Below the pieces are notes generated by a model, which saw nothing but the letters and a program-made list of their open reading frames with translations, did not search any database and was not told the DNA's origin. A program made the translations under genes and the position numbers. From Propionibacteriaceae bacterium (GTDB lineage Bacteria; Actinomycetota; Actinomycetes; Propionibacteriales; Propionibacteriaceae), in assembly GCA_031266665.1 (NCBI GenBank), contig JAISAO010000021.1, positions 1 through 64,000 of the forward strand: 64,000 bases of DNA, given 5' to 3'. Of the stretch, positions 3,050 to 53,600 are shown piece by piece. Within the stretch, counting starts at the first letter, position 1, and every line of letters begins with the position of its first letter.

Positions 3050-3487
3050 TCAGCCTAACGTGTCGCCGAGCCGGTCCAAAAGGCTAGCGGCTGCGGCCAG
3101 CCGGCCCAGCTCCTGGCCGTCCAGGCCCTCCAGCGCCCGGGCCAGCCATTGGTCGCGCCGCCGCATATCGGCGGCCAGGGACGCCCGGCCCGCCCCGGTC
3201 AGTCGTAGCCGGCGGCGACGGCCGTCGGCCGCGTCCGGCGTCCGGGCGATCAGGCCGTCGGCCTCCAACTCCGCCAGCGGCCTGGACAACGATTGCGGCC
3301 GCTGCCGCTCGGCGGCGCCGATCTCGGACGGCGTGCCCTCCCCTTGGCGGTGGAGATAGCTCAAGATCGCGACCTTGTTGTTACTCAGCGCCGACTGCTC
3401 CCGCTCCACCCGCAGGCGGCGGGCCAGTCGCAGCACGGCCGCCCGCAGCGCCGGAGCGATTTCCTCGGGGGTTGACACGGCCTGCAC
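3050..3487 (-). CDS. MarR-family transcriptional regulator
   Basis: Winged-helix regulator of about 145 aa with the MarR order: helical N-terminus, SALSNNKVAILSYL, recognition segment PSEIGAAERQRPQSLSRPLA, wing DAADGRRRRLRLT, and a C-terminal dimer helix. The start chosen is GTG 3487, because a -10 box TAACGT (3495-3500) lies 7 nt upstream (leaderless type). A TTG at 3517 would extend the frame but overlaps a palindrome that is better read as an operator. It is divergent from the FUSC membrane protein gene (gap about 60 bp), so it probably represses that gene and itself in response to a small ligand. Confidence 0.85.
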   Translation of the reverse strand: MQAVSTPEEIAPALRAAVLRLARRLRVEREQSALSNNKVAILSYLHRQGEGTPSEIGAAERQRPQSLSRPLAELEADGLIARTPDAADGRRRRLRLTGAGRASLAADMRRRDQWLARALEGLDGQELGRLAAAASLLDRLGDTLG

Positions 3488-3547: not shown

Positions 3548-5218
3548 GTGCCCCGTTGGACTCCGACCCGACTGGCCGCCGGGCTCGGCCGCGGCGCCCG
3601 GGCCATGGCGGCGACCATGGTCGTGGTGCTGCCGACCTTCTGGTCGATGCTCCAACTCGGCGCCTGGTGGCGGGTGCCGCTCAACGCCGTGGTGTTCGCG
3701 GTCATGCTGGCCCTGTCCCTCCCCCGGGCGCTGGCCAGGACCGATTGGAGACAAGTGCCATTGGCGGTCGGGCTGCTCGGGCCGGCCGTCGCGGCCGCCG
3801 CCGGCTGTGCCGCGTTGTTGGGTCGAGACGACGGCTGGCGGGCGGCCGGGGCGACGCTGTTCGCGCTCGGCGTCGCCTGGCCGGTCTGGGCCCGCCGCTT
3901 CGGCCCCGCCTGGCGGGCCGGCGGCGGCGTGGCCGCCCTCCCCTTCCTGGCCGCCTTGGTCCAGCCCGAGCCGGTCGGGCCGGCCGGAGCCTTCCTGGGC
4001 TGGGCGCTGCTGGGGGCCGCTGTGGCGCTGGCCTGGGCGCTGCTGGCCCGGGGCCTCTCCCCGGCCGATCAGGCGGCGGAGGCCGACCTCGCGGCGAGCG
4101 GGGAACGAACGTCACCGGACCGCAGCCGAGCCAAGGGCCGGCGCCAGCCAGATGAAGCCCCCGGCCCCACCACCACCGACCAGACGACGGACGAGGAATA
4201 TCCGCCACCGACTCACGGCCGCGCCAAGGGTCAACACCAGCCAGGCGAAGCCTCTGGCCTCGCCCCGACCGACTCCACGGCAAACAGTGAACAGACACCT
4301 CGCCGGACGGCCGGGCCACGGGCCAGCAGCAGCCAGGCTCTCCAGATCGGCGTTGCCACGGTCGTCGCCTTCGCCGTCGCCCAGGCGCTCGACCCCGACC
4401 ATCTGGTGTGGCCGGTGATGACGGTGCTGATCACCCACAGCGGCAACCGGGGGCGCGGCGACGTGCTGGTCAAGGGGGCCGGGCGGATCGTCGGCGCGCT
4501 GGCCGGGACCGGGATCGCCGCCCTAGTCGGCGGCTGGTTCGCCGTCGGCGACGCCACCGCCGTGGTGGCGCTGTTCGCGGTCCTGGCCCTGGCCGCCGCC
4601 GCCCGCCCCCTGGGCCACGTCTACTGGGCCGCCGGCGTCACCGCCGGGCTGGCCCTCCTCTACGGCTACTGCGGACAGTCCGGCCTCGACCTGCTGGGCC
4701 ACCGCCTGCTCGGCATCCTGGCCGGCGGCGCCGTCGCCCTGGCCGCCGCCTGGTTCCTGCGGCCCGTCCGCACCACCGACGTGGCCCGCCTGCGCCTGGC
4801 CCGGCTGCTGGCGGCGGCGGCCAAGGCCTGCGCCGCGGCGGCCCGGGGCGAGCCGGCCATTGAGCCCAGCTCCACGGCTGGTCGGCCGGGCGAGCGTTGG
4901 GGTTGGGCCGAGCCGGCCCGGCGGTTGGGCGCGGCCGACCGCCAACTGGGCGACCTCGAGGCCACGGCCCGCGCCGCCCGCCGCTGCGGCCTCGGCCCCG
5001 CCCGCGACCTGGACCGGTTATTGGCCTCGGCCCACGGCCTGGCCCGCGCCGTCCTAACCCGCGTCACCGGCCCGGCGGCCCCAGACCGGGCGCCCCTCGG
5101 CCGGCTGGCCCACGACTTGGCCGACCGGGCGCGCGCGCTGGCCGACCGGCGGCAGCCGCTCGACGGCCGACTGGCCCACGACCTGGCCGACCTGGCCCGA
5201 GAGATAACCGCCCAGTGA
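3548..5218 (+). CDS. FUSC-family inner-membrane protein (putative aromatic compound exporter)
   Basis: Integral membrane protein of about 556 aa with two blocks of hydrophobic helices (about residues 15-175 and 275-410) and a soluble Ala/Arg-rich C-terminal region, as in FUSC/YccS-type proteins. The second block contains WPVMTVLITHSGNRGRGDVL and the R-x-x-G-T pattern typical of the FUSC core (GRIVGALAGTGIAALVGGWF). Between the blocks lies a hydrophilic linker of about 95 residues containing a degenerate repeat (RAKGRRQPDEA, then RAKGQHQPGEA). The start GTG 3548 has AGGAG 5 nt upstream; an earlier GTG at 3542 overlaps that site. Divergent MarR suggests ligand-induced efflux. The substrate is unknown. 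Confidence 0.75.
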   Translation: MPRWTPTRLAAGLGRGARAMAATMVVVLPTFWSMLQLGAWWRVPLNAVVFAVMLALSLPRALARTDWRQVPLAVGLLGPAVAAAAGCAALLGRDDGWRAAGATLFALGVAWPVWARRFGPAWRAGGGVAALPFLAALVQPEPVGPAGAFLGWALLGAAVALAWALLARGLSPADQAAEADLAASGERTSPDRSRAKGRRQPDEAPGPTTTDQTTDEEYPPPTHGRAKGQHQPGEASGLAPTDSTANSEQTPRRTAGPRASSSQALQIGVATVVAFAVAQALDPDHLVWPVMTVLITHSGNRGRGDVLVKGAGRIVGALAGTGIAALVGGWFAVGDATAVVALFAVLALAAAARPLGHVYWAAGVTAGLALLYGYCGQSGLDLLGHRLLGILAGGAVALAAAWFLRPVRTTDVARLRLARLLAAAAKACAAAARGEPAIEPSSTAGRPGERWGWAEPARRLGAADRQLGDLEATARAARRCGLGPARDLDRLLASAHGLARAVLTRVTGPAAPDRAPLGRLAHDLADRARALADRRQPLDGRLAHDLADLAREITAQ

Positions 5219-5481: not shown

Positions 5482-6171
5482 TCAGGCCGGCTCGGTGCCG
5501 CCCGGCCCGGTCGTCGGCTCGGCGTCCCCCGGCGTGGTCGTCGGCTCGGCCGTTAGCAGGATGGCCCCCAGCAGGCCGGACAGGAATTGGGGCGACTCGT
5601 CGGTCGACAGCTCCCGCGCCAGGGCGGCGGCCTCGCTGATGACGACCCCCGGGGGAACGCTCAGCCAAGTGGCCTCGGCCACCGCCAAGCGGGCCAGGGA
5701 ACGGTCTACGGCCGGCATCCGGGCGATGCTCCAACCGGGTTTGAGACAACGGGCGATGGTCTGGTCCAGCTCCGGCTGATGGTCGGCCACGGCTTCGACC
5801 AACTGGCGGCTGTAGGCGGGCAGGGCGGCGTCGGTCGTGACCATGTTCTGGGCGGCCAGGGCCATGGGGTCGACCTGGCGCAGGTCGGCGGCGAAGAGCA
5901 GGTCGAGGGCATACTTGCGGGCCTTGCGCCGGCCGGAGCGATGGGGCCGGTCGGCCGTCGGCCCGGACCCGGGGGGGGCGCCCGCCGGCACGGGCCTAGG
6001 TCTCGATCCGCTGGCCGGCGAATCGGCCGACCCTCCGGACGCAGGAGACGCGCTCTTCCGAGCGGGCGTCGGCCGCGATGCGTCGGCCGCTAGTTCAGCC
6101 GTCCCCTCGGACGCGGGAGACGCGCTCTCACGAACTGATGTCAGCTGCGCGCCGGCCGGCGGCTCAGACAC
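5482..6171 (-). CDS. nusB: Transcription antitermination factor NusB
   Basis: NusB binds boxA RNA with S10 (NusE) during rRNA transcription. The conserved all-helical core runs from about residue 80 ([18 protein letters not shown]) to about 205 ([20 protein letters not shown], then LSGLLGAIL). It is preceded by an unusual 78-residue Ser/Ala/Pro-rich region of degenerate repeats ([18 protein letters not shown]) and followed by a Pro/Thr/Gly tail. The family is usually about 140 aa; this one is 229. The ATG at 6171 overlaps the efp stop by 8 bp, so the two are translationally coupled. A later internal start near residue 80 would give a normal NusB and cannot be excluded. Confidence 0.9.
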
Positions 6172-17192: not shown

Positions 17193-17297
17193 GCGGCCAC
17201 CCGCGACCGACGACCACCCATGGGACGGGGGACGCGCCCCCGCCAGCCGTCCGCTCGGCGGCGGTCAGGCGCTCGTCTCACATCGGCCCGGATTGGC

Positions 17298-17460
17298 CTA
17301 GATGGTTAATTCCAAGGGCTGGGCGATGGATTCGCGCTCAGACGACGGGCCGGCCAGGAAGAGGAGAGAGGCGATGTGTCGCATCGCCGACCGACGAGGA
17401 CGCCGCCGGCGCGTCGTCTGAGCGTGAGGACGAGCCCATGGCTTGGAATTAACCATCTAG
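17298..17460. repeat. MITE-like element, family 2, copy 1 (163 bp)
   Basis: Terminal inverted repeats CTAGATGGTTAATTCCAAG; inside them lie further complementary blocks (CAGACGAC and GTCGTCTG) and a central GGCGATG...CATCGCC stem, so the whole element folds as a branched cruciform. Ends are CTAG on both sides. Homologous copies lie at 37992-38154 and 38680-38842, in the reverse arrangement of arms. It sits 9 bp downstream of the SRPBCC gene's stop codon. Confidence 0.85.
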
Positions 17461-37933: not shown

Positions 37934-37991
37934 CTCCCGACGACTCCCGGCGGCGACAGCGACCGGGGCCGCCTCGGCCGCCGGGCCCGTC

Positions 37992-38154
37992 CTAGATGGT
38001 TAATTCCAAGCCATGGGCTCGTCCTCACGCCCAGACGACGCGCCGGCGGCGTCATCGTCGGTGGGCGATGCGACACATCGCCTCCCGGCGCTTACCGGGC
38101 GGCCCGCCGTCTGAGCGCGAATCCATCGCCCAGCCCTTGGAATCAACCATCTAG
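37992..38154. repeat. MITE-like element, family 2, copy 2 (163 bp)
   Basis: CTAGATGGTTAATTCCAAG at the left and its complement (one mismatch) at the right, with CTAG at both borders; internal blocks GGGCTCGTCCTC and CATCGCC match copy 1 in the reverse arrangement. It lies between the UvrD-like gene start and the four-TM gene. Confidence 0.85.
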
Positions 38155-38294: not shown

Positions 38295-38678
38295 ATGAGT
38301 CTTGAGAAGGTCTTCTTCGGCTTCTTTGTGGTGCTGGCCGCCGCCCTCAACTTCGGTTTCTTCGTGGGCGATGTCGGCGACCCCGCCATGCACAACTCGA
38401 TCGAGCTGTACTCCGCCTTGGTGGTGAGCGTCCTGGCCACCGTCATCAAGCTGGGCGACCGCACCCAGATCGGCGCCATCCACCTGGCCACCAGCCTGGT
38501 GGCCGACTTCCAGCTGATCGCCTCGGCCCTGATCTACGCCATCAACACGGCCGGCGGCCAGGTCTTGGACATGCATCTGACGGCCATGATCGTGTCCTTC
38601 TCCGGCGGGGCGCTGTTCGCCAACCTGGTCTCGGTCATTTTGTTGGTCATCGAGACCGCCACCTTCCGCCGGCAGTGA
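38295..38678 (+). CDS. Four-TM membrane protein (DUF6394-like)
   Basis: 127 aa with four predicted TM helices: VFFGFFVVLAAALNFGFFVG, SIELYSALVVSVLATVIKLG, LVADFQLIASALIYAI, and VSFSGGALFANLVSVILLVI. The short loops HNSIELYSAL and KLGDRTQIGAIHLA resemble DUF6394 proteins, which I recall as neighbours of TrkA-type channel genes; confidence in that family name is moderate. TATGTT (38282-38287) is 7 nt before ATG 38295. Flanked on both sides by family-2 MITEs; the second begins about 2 bp after its stop codon. Probably works with the channel protein encoded next. Confidence 0.65.
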   Translation: MSLEKVFFGFFVVLAAALNFGFFVGDVGDPAMHNSIELYSALVVSVLATVIKLGDRTQIGAIHLATSLVADFQLIASALIYAINTAGGQVLDMHLTAMIVSFSGGALFANLVSVILLVIETATFRRQ

Positions 38679-38679
38679 C

Positions 38680-38842
38680 TCAGATGGTTAATCCCAAGCC
38701 ATGGGCTCGTCCTCGCGCCCAGACGACACGCCGGACGGCGTCATCGTCGGTCGGCGATGCTGACATCGCCTCCCTCATTTTCCTGGCCGGCCCGCCGTCT
38801 GAGCGCGCATCCATCGCCCAGCCCTTGGCATCAACCATCTAG
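38680..38842. repeat. MITE-like element, family 2, copy 3 (about 163 bp)
   Basis: Same arms as copy 2 with more changes (GATGGTTAATCCCAAG left; CATCAACCATCTAG right). It begins right after the stop codon of the four-TM gene and ends 8 bp before the TTG start proposed for the channel gene, so it separates what was probably a two-gene operon. Confidence 0.8.
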
Positions 38843-50653: not shown

Positions 50654-51412
50654 TTAGGCGACAATCTTCGCGCCTTTCGAGCGGTTACAGCGCCAGCACA
50701 GCGTCTGTAGGTTCTCGGGCGTGCTGAGACCGCCTTTGGACACCGGCACGATATGATCGACTTCGAGCAATAGATGGGGCTCGGCGGCGAGAGAGACGCC
50801 ACACCGCCGGCAGGCGTACCGGTCGCGCTCTTTGATCGCATTGCGCAACCAGGCTGTCATCAGCGCGCGCTGCCCGGCCGCCGACTTCGCCCAGCGGATC
50901 TTGTCGGCCAACGTTACGGAGAGCGCGTTAAGAGTGGGCGTGTCGAGGCGGATGACTGATTCTTGACTACTGTTGCCTCCCGCCGAGGTGTACTGAAACT
51001 TATACTTCGGGTACGGCACCGCAATAGGCACCCATGCCAACAGGAGCGCGCTATGCTGGTCGTCGGCATTGTTTACGATCTCGATTTCTCGACGTGTCAG
51101 CACCTGTTGATATGTCTCGAGAGGGAAGTGCTCGCACGCTTCGACATCAACACCAAGTTCATGCTCGGAAACACCAGCCATAACCCAGCCATGTGAGTGT
51201 GACCATGAGACTCGGCAACCATTCTTGGTGGGAATTGGACGGCCATGATTACCGCCACAGTGGTCACAAGCCTGATCCAACGAGCTGACTGGTACGTCAT
51301 CCGCGCCAGTCTCCCGGAGAGCCTCTGCAGTCAGTAGTCGAGCTGCCAGAAAGTCGTCCCGATCCTGAGGGCACACAAGCCGTTGGCACCGTTCATCCGC
51401 GACCGGAGACAA
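50654..51412 (-). CDS. Chimeric reading frame: PPTase piece joined to HNH endonuclease C-terminus
   Basis: 252 aa in one frame. Residues 1-127 belong to an Sfp-type phosphopantetheinyl transferase (CDHCGGNHGRPIP, SWSHSHGWVMAG, HELGVDVEACEHF, ending ALLLAWV). Residues from PIAVPYPKYKFQYTSAGG to the end are the C-terminal part of an HNH endonuclease, with CRRCGVSLAAEPHLLLEVDH, IVPVSKGG and LQTLCWRCNRSKG (HNH with paired Cys zinc ligands). The joint lies at 51029/51030, the edge of a 67-bp direct repeat. The original HNH gene continues at 52911-53600. Whether the chimera is translated is unknown; a TTG at 51412 would have to serve as start. Confidence 0.8.
   Translation of the reverse strand: MSPVADERCQRLVCPQDRDDFLAARLLTAEALRETGADDVPVSSLDQACDHCGGNHGRPIPTKNGCRVSWSHSHGWVMAGVSEHELGVDVEACEHFPLETYQQVLTRREIEIVNNADDQHSALLLAWVPIAVPYPKYKFQYTSAGGNSSQESVIRLDTPTLNALSVTLADKIRWAKSAAGQRALMTAWLRNAIKERDRYACRRCGVSLAAEPHLLLEVDHIVPVSKGGLSTPENLQTLCWRCNRSKGAKIVA
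50963..51029. repeat. 67-bp direct repeat, left copy
   Basis: Identical over 67 bp to 52911-52977, beginning TTGACTACTGTTGCC and ending CACCGCAATAGGC. It encodes PIAVPYPKYKFQYTSAGG of the HNH protein. The two copies bound a 1.88-kb insert. Confidence 0.95.
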
Positions 51413-51475
51413 CGGCTGCCACGCAAGGGACTAGAGAACATGGGCCGTCTCGGCGATGTACACGTGGCTCGTCAT
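51030..51475 (-). pseudogene. Sfp-type 4'-phosphopantetheinyl transferase, nonsense-mutated and truncated
   Basis: The true start is ATG 51475, with GGAGGTG 4 nt upstream, 32 bp behind the MFS stop. It reads MTSHVYIAETAHVL, then TAG at 51433-51431 (codon 15), then continues in frame SLAWQPLSPVADERC to AWV, where it is cut by the insert border. Sfp enzymes activate carrier proteins of NRPS/PKS and siderophore pathways. The Mg-binding GVDVE and SHSHG motifs are present, but the WxxKEA segment that completes the site is lost. With its exporter neighbour it looks like a leftover of a biosynthetic cluster. Confidence 0.8.
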
Positions 51476-51507
51476 CGAACACCTCCATTGCGCCAGCCCT
51501 TGACACG

Positions 51508-52794
51508 TCATTCGGTGGCATTGTCTGTTTCGAGTCGACGCTTCCCGTGGCTATCGGGGAGTCGTTGCCACGCGCTTGATCCGACAGCAAAAAGGATGAA
51601 ACCAATACACTGCGTGGCGACAATGCCATGAATCGTCGCTGACTCTCCGAAGAGGGTGAAAGCGAAACCACACGCTGCCAATCCGAAAGATCCACCGAGC
51701 TGGCTCATGGCGGACGTCAGGGAAAGAACCTGCGTTCGTGCCTCAATCGGAATGCGCAGCAGTCTAACGGCGGCAGCTGGTCCATTACTCATGCCATTGA
51801 ACAGCCCTGCGGTAAGCAAACAAACCGCCAGACTCACCGGTGTCAAACCGATCAACAGCAAGCAGAACGTCAGTCCCTGAACGACCTTCCCAAGTGTTGC
51901 CAGAGGAACCAGTGGGAATCGTTTGACCGCCCAGACAGCCGCGAAACTCCCAAGCAATGCGCCAATCCCAAAAGCCCCGAAGACCATTCCGACTATCGTG
52001 ACATCGCCATGATAGCGACTTACAACAAGTATTGGAACGGCCACGAATATGGCCTGCCAAGCCGCTTCAGTCAAGAACGTTCCAAGAGTCCAGAATGACA
52101 GGAGACGATCTCGAAGGAGAAGGCGCACTGTTCCGGAAAACCTCAAGGAACCATTGTCAGACGGTCTACAACCACCAGGCACAAACCACAGCACGATACT
52201 GGCCGAAGCAGCGTAGGCAGCGGCATTGATATAGAGCACACCCGGTGCTCCAAGCACTGCTACTAGGCCAGCAGCCATCGGAGAACCGAGCATTCCAGCA
52301 AGTCGAACTGCGCCCTGCAACAGGGAAGTGCTTTGACCAAGGCGAGCTTCATCTTGGCCTATCACGTCTCCGACGATGGCCTGTTGCGCTGCCAAGTAGG
52401 GGGCACCAAACATGCCTGCAACGAACACAATCAGCAGGAGTCCCTCAAGGTTGAGTACCCCGTTCAACTGCAGAGTAGGAATTGCTGCGGTCAGCCCACA
52501 CCTTGCTAGATCGGCCATAATCATCCAGCGACGGTTTCCAAATCGCGCGGCGAGCTGACCGCCAAGAGGAGCAAACAGCGCGAGGGGCAGCAACTGAGTC
52601 GCCATCACAAGACCAGCTGCCCTAGGAGACTGCGACGCCGCAAGGACGAGCCATGGAAGACCAATCAGGTTGCACTGAACACCCGTAGTACTAACGACTT
52701 CGGCGATAACAAGTGGGCGAAATCCAGTTGCTGGCCTTGCGTTCGCGTTCGAATCATCCCTGTTGTGGTCGCGCCTACCAGCAGATAGCACCAC
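51508..52794 (-). CDS. MFS exporter in the inserted segment
   Basis: 428 aa, about 12 TM helices. Opens FRPLVIAEVVSTTGVQCNLI, LPWLVLAASQSPRAAGLVMA; motif A-like LGGQLAARFGNRRWMIMADL; FGAPYLAAQQAIVGDVIG is typical of the enterobactin-exporter/MFS_3 group (EntS-like) that drops out natural products. GTG 52794 follows GGGAGG. Base composition is clearly lower in GC than flanking genes, pointing to transfer. The PPTase gene follows it 32 bp on, so both were one operon. Substrate not known; a peptide or polyketide is suggested by the partner. Confidence 0.88.
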   Translation of the reverse strand: MVLSAGRRDHNRDDSNANARPATGFRPLVIAEVVSTTGVQCNLIGLPWLVLAASQSPRAAGLVMATQLLPLALFAPLGGQLAARFGNRRWMIMADLARCGLTAAIPTLQLNGVLNLEGLLLIVFVAGMFGAPYLAAQQAIVGDVIGQDEARLGQSTSLLQGAVRLAGMLGSPMAAGLVAVLGAPGVLYINAAAYAASASIVLWFVPGGCRPSDNGSLRFSGTVRLLLRDRLLSFWTLGTFLTEAAWQAIFVAVPILVVSRYHGDVTIVGMVFGAFGIGALLGSFAAVWAVKRFPLVPLATLGKVVQGLTFCLLLIGLTPVSLAVCLLTAGLFNGMSNGPAAAVRLLRIPIEARTQVLSLTSAMSQLGGSFGLAACGFAFTLFGESATIHGIVATQCIGFILFAVGSSAWQRLPDSHGKRRLETDNATE

Positions 52795-52904
52795 TCACCT
52801 CCCTCCTGCATCACTCAACCGTCGACCCGAATTGGTGATCAACGCTGACTCAGGGTGACCTGTCTTCAGCGCAGTACCAGTTAGCACTACCACCGTGGTC
52901 TCGC

Positions 52905-53600
52905 CTATTTTTGACTACTGTTGCCTCCCGCCGAGGTGTACTGAAACTTATACTTCGGGTACGGCACCGCAATAGGCGACAGATGAGCGCCGAGCTGGCT
53001 CCAGAACTCATTGGCGTAGCGCTTAAGGATGAATACCGGAGGATCGATCTTAGCGGCGATGACCATCTCGCGCTCTCTGACATTGGCGACGGCGTCCTCT
53101 AACTGGGAGATGGATTCGGCCACCCGCTGAACGTCTGCGAGAGTCTCCCGGTCCGCCTTGATGCCGAAATACTTCATCAAGTACTTGATGGGCTCCATAC
53201 TAGCGTTGCGCACAATTTGTAGGGACGCATTGTGGACGTGCGAGGCGTACTCGGCCACATTGCGGTTACGCCGGTTGTTCCACCTCGAGGTGTTGTCAAA
53301 CGTCGCCAAGTGGGCGTACTGTCCGGTGGACGACGCCCCCACCTCGAACGAGCCCCGGGCTCTGATCTCAGCCACATAGCCCACAATGTCGTTGTGCTCG
53401 GCGACGACAGAGGCGACCTCGGCCCGCAACGCCTTGAACCGCTCTGAGCCGAAGTAACGATTCTTGCGGACTGCCCAGATGATCGAGCTGGCGACAATCA
53501 CCACCGCCAGCGCGACGACGGCGACAATGGGGTTGTTGGTGACCATACCCAAGGCGACAGGCACCGCGATGAGCAGTGGAATAAACAACCACAGTGGCAC
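52905..53600 (-). pseudogene. Membrane-anchored HNH endonuclease gene, 5' part
   Basis: 231 codons. N-terminal hydrophobic hairpin MPLWLFIPLLIAVPVALGM and IVAVVALAVVIVASSIIWAV (two TM segments), then a long helical domain (ERFKALRAEVASVVAEHNDI, LADVQRVAESISQLEDAVAN) and the shared end PIAVPYPKYKFQYTSAGG, stopping just past the 67-bp repeat with a stop codon from the insert. GGAAGGGGG precedes GTG 53600. The missing catalytic HNH half lies at 50654-51029. The intact protein would be a membrane-tethered nuclease of about 332 aa, a design seen in some phage-defence proteins. Confidence 0.85.
52911..52977. repeat. 67-bp direct repeat, right copy
   Basis: Perfect match to 50963-51029. The codon phase is the same in both copies relative to the HNH frame. 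Confidence 0.95.

Follow-up and report, generated by a model that had tools for sequence, protein, structure and literature searches.

A gene for a membrane-HNH protein in a Propionibacteriaceae bacterium is split by what looks like a stray operon fragment, lying between two identical 67-bp direct repeats. We lean towards a single, recent, non-homologous insertion, in which foreign DNA would have entered at a staggered break that was filled in and joined by a Ku-independent route; we infer each of these steps, and the enzyme that did the joining, rather than observe them. Read in this way, the locus would be a clean and young case of foreign DNA taken into a chromosome without an element, detectable homology or detected Ku, with both borders preserved. 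In what follows, the window is the whole stretch of DNA that was analyzed, 64,000 nucleotides of contig JAISAO010000021.1.

The 67-bp direct repeat and the interrupted gene

The two repeat copies (Table 1) are identical over exactly 67 bp, with a mismatch at the first base past each end, and in the reading frame of the minus-strand HNH gene both translate as ...PIAVPYPKYKFQYTSAGGNSSQ.... The original prediction, which had placed two identical copies in the same codon phase of one HNH gene, thus holds to the base. The perfect repeat is not due to chance. We surveyed a sample of genome stretches, about 452 kb in all, and the 67-bp pair is the sole isolated perfect repeat of that length separating unrelated DNA, longer ones sitting within tandem gene or domain duplications.

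Deleting the insert and one 67-bp copy in silico yields an open frame for a 332-aa membrane-HNH protein, as had been predicted. This rejoined protein is 72% identical to an uninterrupted 365-aa protein of the Arthrobacter plasmid pZXY21, with which it is collinear and gap-free at the joint, and 62% identical to a Rhodococcus plasmid protein. A search for the uninterrupted gene in relatives, the check proposed at the outset, found a single uninterrupted HNH match in 60 of 68 loci from sequenced genomes, in addition to the plasmid, and bears out the claim that a single HNH gene received foreign DNA. The search shows the empty site across species (in other species and on a plasmid), not within one species. 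Because the protein is uninterrupted in these relatives, we take the 67 bp to be a duplicated target sequence; the protein segment that they encode is conserved in the HNH family, and they would therefore be the target's own sequence and not a donor att site.

Eight loci have no single full-length match, and in the six that we checked (L162 and L163 were left out) there were no long direct repeats, on which ground recurrent insertion at the HNH site in relatives was rejected. In Tsukamurella sp. TY48 (L147, 3478-5618) the HNH gene is split by an apparently ordinary IS3-type element, with no direct repeat of at least 20 bp.

Table 1. Coordinates of the repeat copies, the parts of the HNH gene and the genes of the insert, as positions in the window
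Feature	Position	Strand	Basis
67-bp target duplication, 5' copy in gene direction	52911..52977	-	sequence comparison
67-bp target duplication, 3' copy in gene direction	50963..51029	-	sequence comparison
9-bp inverted match around one repeat copy: TCGCCTATT (52901-52909) / AATAGGCGA (52971-52979)	52901..52979	.	sequence comparison
HNH gene, 5' part: 231-aa ORF with two N-terminal hydrophobic helices and the middle region, ending 2 codons into the insert	52905..53600	-	ORF; helices from a relative's predicted structure
HNH gene, 3' part: encodes the HNH domain and now forms the tail of chimeric ORF 51412-50654 (252 aa)	50654..51029	-	ORF, family match
Insert: 37-codon open frame with its stop, probably the cut-off 3' end of a donor-operon gene lying upstream	52795..52908	-	ORF reading; no match in family and PDB searches
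Insert: complete MFS exporter, 428 aa, EntS-like / 2A0121 type	51508..52794	-	ORF and family matches
Insert: Sfp/EntD-type phosphopantetheinyl transferase (PPTase), first 127 codons only, fused in frame to the HNH tail	51030..51412	-	ORF, Pfam, structure match

Both HNH halves keep their reading frames and, where both rates were estimable, amino-acid-changing divergence from relatives lies well below silent divergence. Taken with the identity of the two copies, these patterns point to an insertion that is probably recent. The HNH domain, cut off from its membrane part, is now preceded by the PPTase fragment, so that the nuclease gene has most likely been inactivated; what remains is a membrane piece from the N-terminus and a PPTase'-HNH chimera. 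The gene for the exporter is complete and may still be expressed.

Content and origin of the insert

The insert occupies 51030-52910, 1,881 bp between the 67-bp copies. It had been described as an MFS exporter and a PPTase gene with no transposase: the exporter is whole and neither the ORFs nor the family matches between the repeats include a transposase or an integrase, but the PPTase is present only as an N-terminal fragment. This fragment matches Pfam 4PPT_N, while ACPS aligned only at profile positions 2-51 of 111, and its best structure match, a weak one, is Sfp. The gene is cut about two-thirds through, inside the ACPS domain, at the insert junction, from which the frame continues into the HNH tail; the resulting ORF is therefore a chimera. 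At the opposite end, the 37-codon frame reaches its stop shortly before the MFS start. The insert appears to cut through a gene at either border, plainly so on the PPTase side and, on the other, by way of an unassigned reading frame. The insert tips carry no terminal inverted repeats, and a transposon with terminal repeats was rejected since the tips share none. The insert looks like an arbitrary operon fragment captured once and recently, with no defined ends, and like neither a mobile element nor a cassette.

The insert is indeed lower in GC than the window (56.3% versus 68.6%), as originally predicted, but the HNH gene is itself GC-poor at 60.2%, so that the insert contrasts less with its immediate surroundings than had been implied. 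We did not find the donor operon in a contig scan of genomes, by DNA comparison with 294 genomes from the order, or among plasmids or viral contigs, and the whole region has no second copy in its own genome; microhomology at the joints is unreadable for want of the donor. The nearest MFS relative found is 36% identical and adjoins an NRPS-like giant ORF, which fits a natural-product origin of the insert. Of the proposal that a natural-product remnant is carried here as cargo, the foreign DNA of natural-product type is retained, while the truncated ends and fragmentary nature of the insert weaken the cargo idea.

Routes of insertion

The genome is a fragmented draft of 106 contigs, the insert has a different composition, its donor was not found and the contig evidence comes without reads, all of which would suit an assembly or library chimera, with the insert joined to the genome in the computer or in the tube. 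We compared the ends of about 40 contigs and found recurrent exact 119-bp overlaps, which mark the final word size as 119, in agreement with the name of the same-genus contig that carries the HNH gene (Propionibacteriaceae bacterium Md513_bin121 k119_2407768). Since 67 bp is shorter than this word, words of 119 bases span each copy and reach the sequence on either side of it, which argues against an overlap artefact. A De Bruijn word-overlap artefact was rejected on the 119-bp, not 67-bp, overlap of contig ends, a result that is no substitute for evidence from reads. A random chimera would also not be expected to have a single 67-bp target segment at both borders. The insertion is most likely real, and we regard a chimera as improbable.

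Long target duplications have been on record for more than 20 years, and what surprises here is how the insert arose, not that such an object exists. Nobusato, Uchiyama, Ohashi and Kobayashi reported insertion with long target duplication from Helicobacter pylori in 2000. In later accounts of these cases (PMC1643837, PMC3874152, PMC3031569), strains of one species are compared, the direct repeats are long and variable (of the order of 100 bp) and single in the uninserted relative, the inserts are mostly restriction-modification (RM) genes, and no known mobile element is linked to them. Judged by its sequence, the present case has the essential form of such an insertion: foreign genes lie between long direct repeats (67 bp, identical), the repeat is a single-copy target sequence in uninserted relatives (here of other species), and the insert is unlinked to a known mobile element. 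It differs in its host, an actinomycete, and in its insert, a non-RM operon fragment (MFS and truncated PPTase); RM genes are the usual cargo, not an obligatory one, and the insert holds none.

Elements of the IS1634 family likewise make long variable target duplications, of 8-514 bp, for which no mechanistic model had been put forward (PMC2266710). The 67-bp repeat falls within this range, and the original statement that transposon duplications are typically 2-14 bp long overlooks that long ones do occur in bacteria. An IS1634-family element of 1,949 bp with 15-bp ends CCCGAGTTTSAGGTT lies on contig C61 of this genome (L194, 3370-5597), its inverted repeats being at 3563-3577 and 5497-5511. 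Directly after its right end the sequence from 3370 recurs without mismatch for 86 bp, until the contig stops, and from this copy and the geometry we infer a 193-bp duplication. Another IS1634-family element, in a same-genus genome (L241), lies between direct repeats at 1238-1464 and 3090-3316 of about 227 bp, whose 9 mismatches mark it as older, suggesting that duplications of about 200 bp are usual for the family in the genus. A genus in which long duplications occur both with an element (193 and about 227 bp) and without one (67 bp) could be used for testing a shared mechanism. The window also holds dispersed MITE-like repeats of about 160 bp (37980-38154 and 38668-38842, with a related stretch at 17286-17324) that have inverted ends CTAGATGGTTAATTCCAAG ... 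CTTGGAATCAACCATCTAG, and several other contigs have similar stretches at their ends.

Under the reading we favour, the chromosome would have been cut by breaks on the two strands 67 bp apart, incoming linear foreign DNA would have been joined to both chromosome ends, and fill-in of the single-stranded ends would have given rise to the 67-bp repeat. For the joining we propose an alternative end-joining route because Ku was not found in the genome (no PF02735 match, in a genome 94% complete from which the gene could be missing), and classical Ku-dependent (Ku/LigD) end joining is disfavoured on the same ground. A one-off capture is supported by the 67 bp being target sequence in relatives, by the genes apparently cut at the insert borders and by the lack of inverted repeats, of a transposase, of an integrase and of another copy. 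The failure to find Ku counts against the favoured reading, as does the 9-bp inverted match that brackets one repeat copy. Such a match arises in about 1% of random cases; it is possibly a trace of the joining event, or chance, and hints weakly at template switching instead. Replication template switching can yield an insert flanked by a target duplication, as seen here, and is usually marked by microhomology. A nascent strand would have jumped from the HNH gene to foreign DNA, copied 1.9 kb and re-entered the target 67 bp upstream of its exit, a single step that would yield an identical product and require neither a break nor Ku. The other border comparisons, however, gave no microhomology longer than 4-6 bp, the foreign DNA would have to be held at the fork, and the donor is missing. 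We rank template switching next after a staggered break, as an unlikely alternative. A literature search on short-patch double illegitimate recombination returned no match among the papers covered.

The IS1634-type elements of the genus, with their duplications of 193 bp and, with mismatches, about 227 bp, raise the prospect that a long-stagger transposase of this family, resident in the genome, inserted DNA lacking proper ends. The known span of the family's repeats accommodates the one seen here; the insert itself, unlike an IS1634/IS1549-family element, has neither a transposase nor inverted repeats. The only match to the NF033559 transposase in the genome is on C61, with none in the insert, and the tips of the insert resemble neither one another nor those of the IS, scoring no better than shuffles. 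The 15-bp IS end occurs in the genome only on C61, plus one match with 1 mismatch on C1, the window has no 15-bp end with fewer than 3 mismatches, and the insert ends cut genes. An IS1634 remnant was rejected, the insert tips being unlike IS ends, and the action of the resident transposase strikes us as a poor prospect. Fainter still is the wider idea that, across the genus, a long-stagger cutting activity, perhaps the IS1634-type transposase behind the duplications of about 200 bp, also inserts end-less DNA; if true, it would provide a transposase-assisted route for the capture of stray gene fragments. We give the least credence to a small integrative cassette with its own 67-bp attachment site and an integrase supplied from elsewhere. 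A direct repeat of tens of bp around an insert does resemble attL/attR, but the insert encodes no integrase, its ends cut genes, integration splits the target gene rather than restoring it, the region is present only once in the genome, and viral contigs lack the first 26 bp of the repeat. Integration by recombination in a 67-bp identity, as first suggested, is likewise at odds with the absence of another copy in the genome and with the 67 bp being a conserved stretch of the HNH family. Replication-error capture, the other route first suggested, keeps some probability.

Distribution and possible role of the HNH family

The HNH family is patchy in distribution and found mostly in Actinomycetota. 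The predicted structure of a relative has helices H3-21 and H24-50 at its N-terminus, fitting for two membrane anchors. A fold search with the HNH protein retrieved only HNH domains, weakly, with none at E below 0.001, and the PADLOC models gave HNH-domain matches only, no known defence family matching over the whole protein. In IMG/VR, relatives of the membrane-HNH protein are present in 42 viral or proviral contigs (L198-L239), some of them matching the HNH end only. The membrane-HNH gene might be a prophage accessory gene that acts in superinfection exclusion or defence. A defence role, raised in the original prediction, is possible for the target, with only circumstantial support, from the proviral relatives and some defence-family neighbours.

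At 22 HNH loci (within L096-L138) we found no constant partner among the neighbouring ORFs. The 83 neighbour ORFs at these loci include single matches to a UG17-type reverse transcriptase, AbiD, PDC-S01 and an AbiV-like HEPN protein, and two match kinases or mad6.
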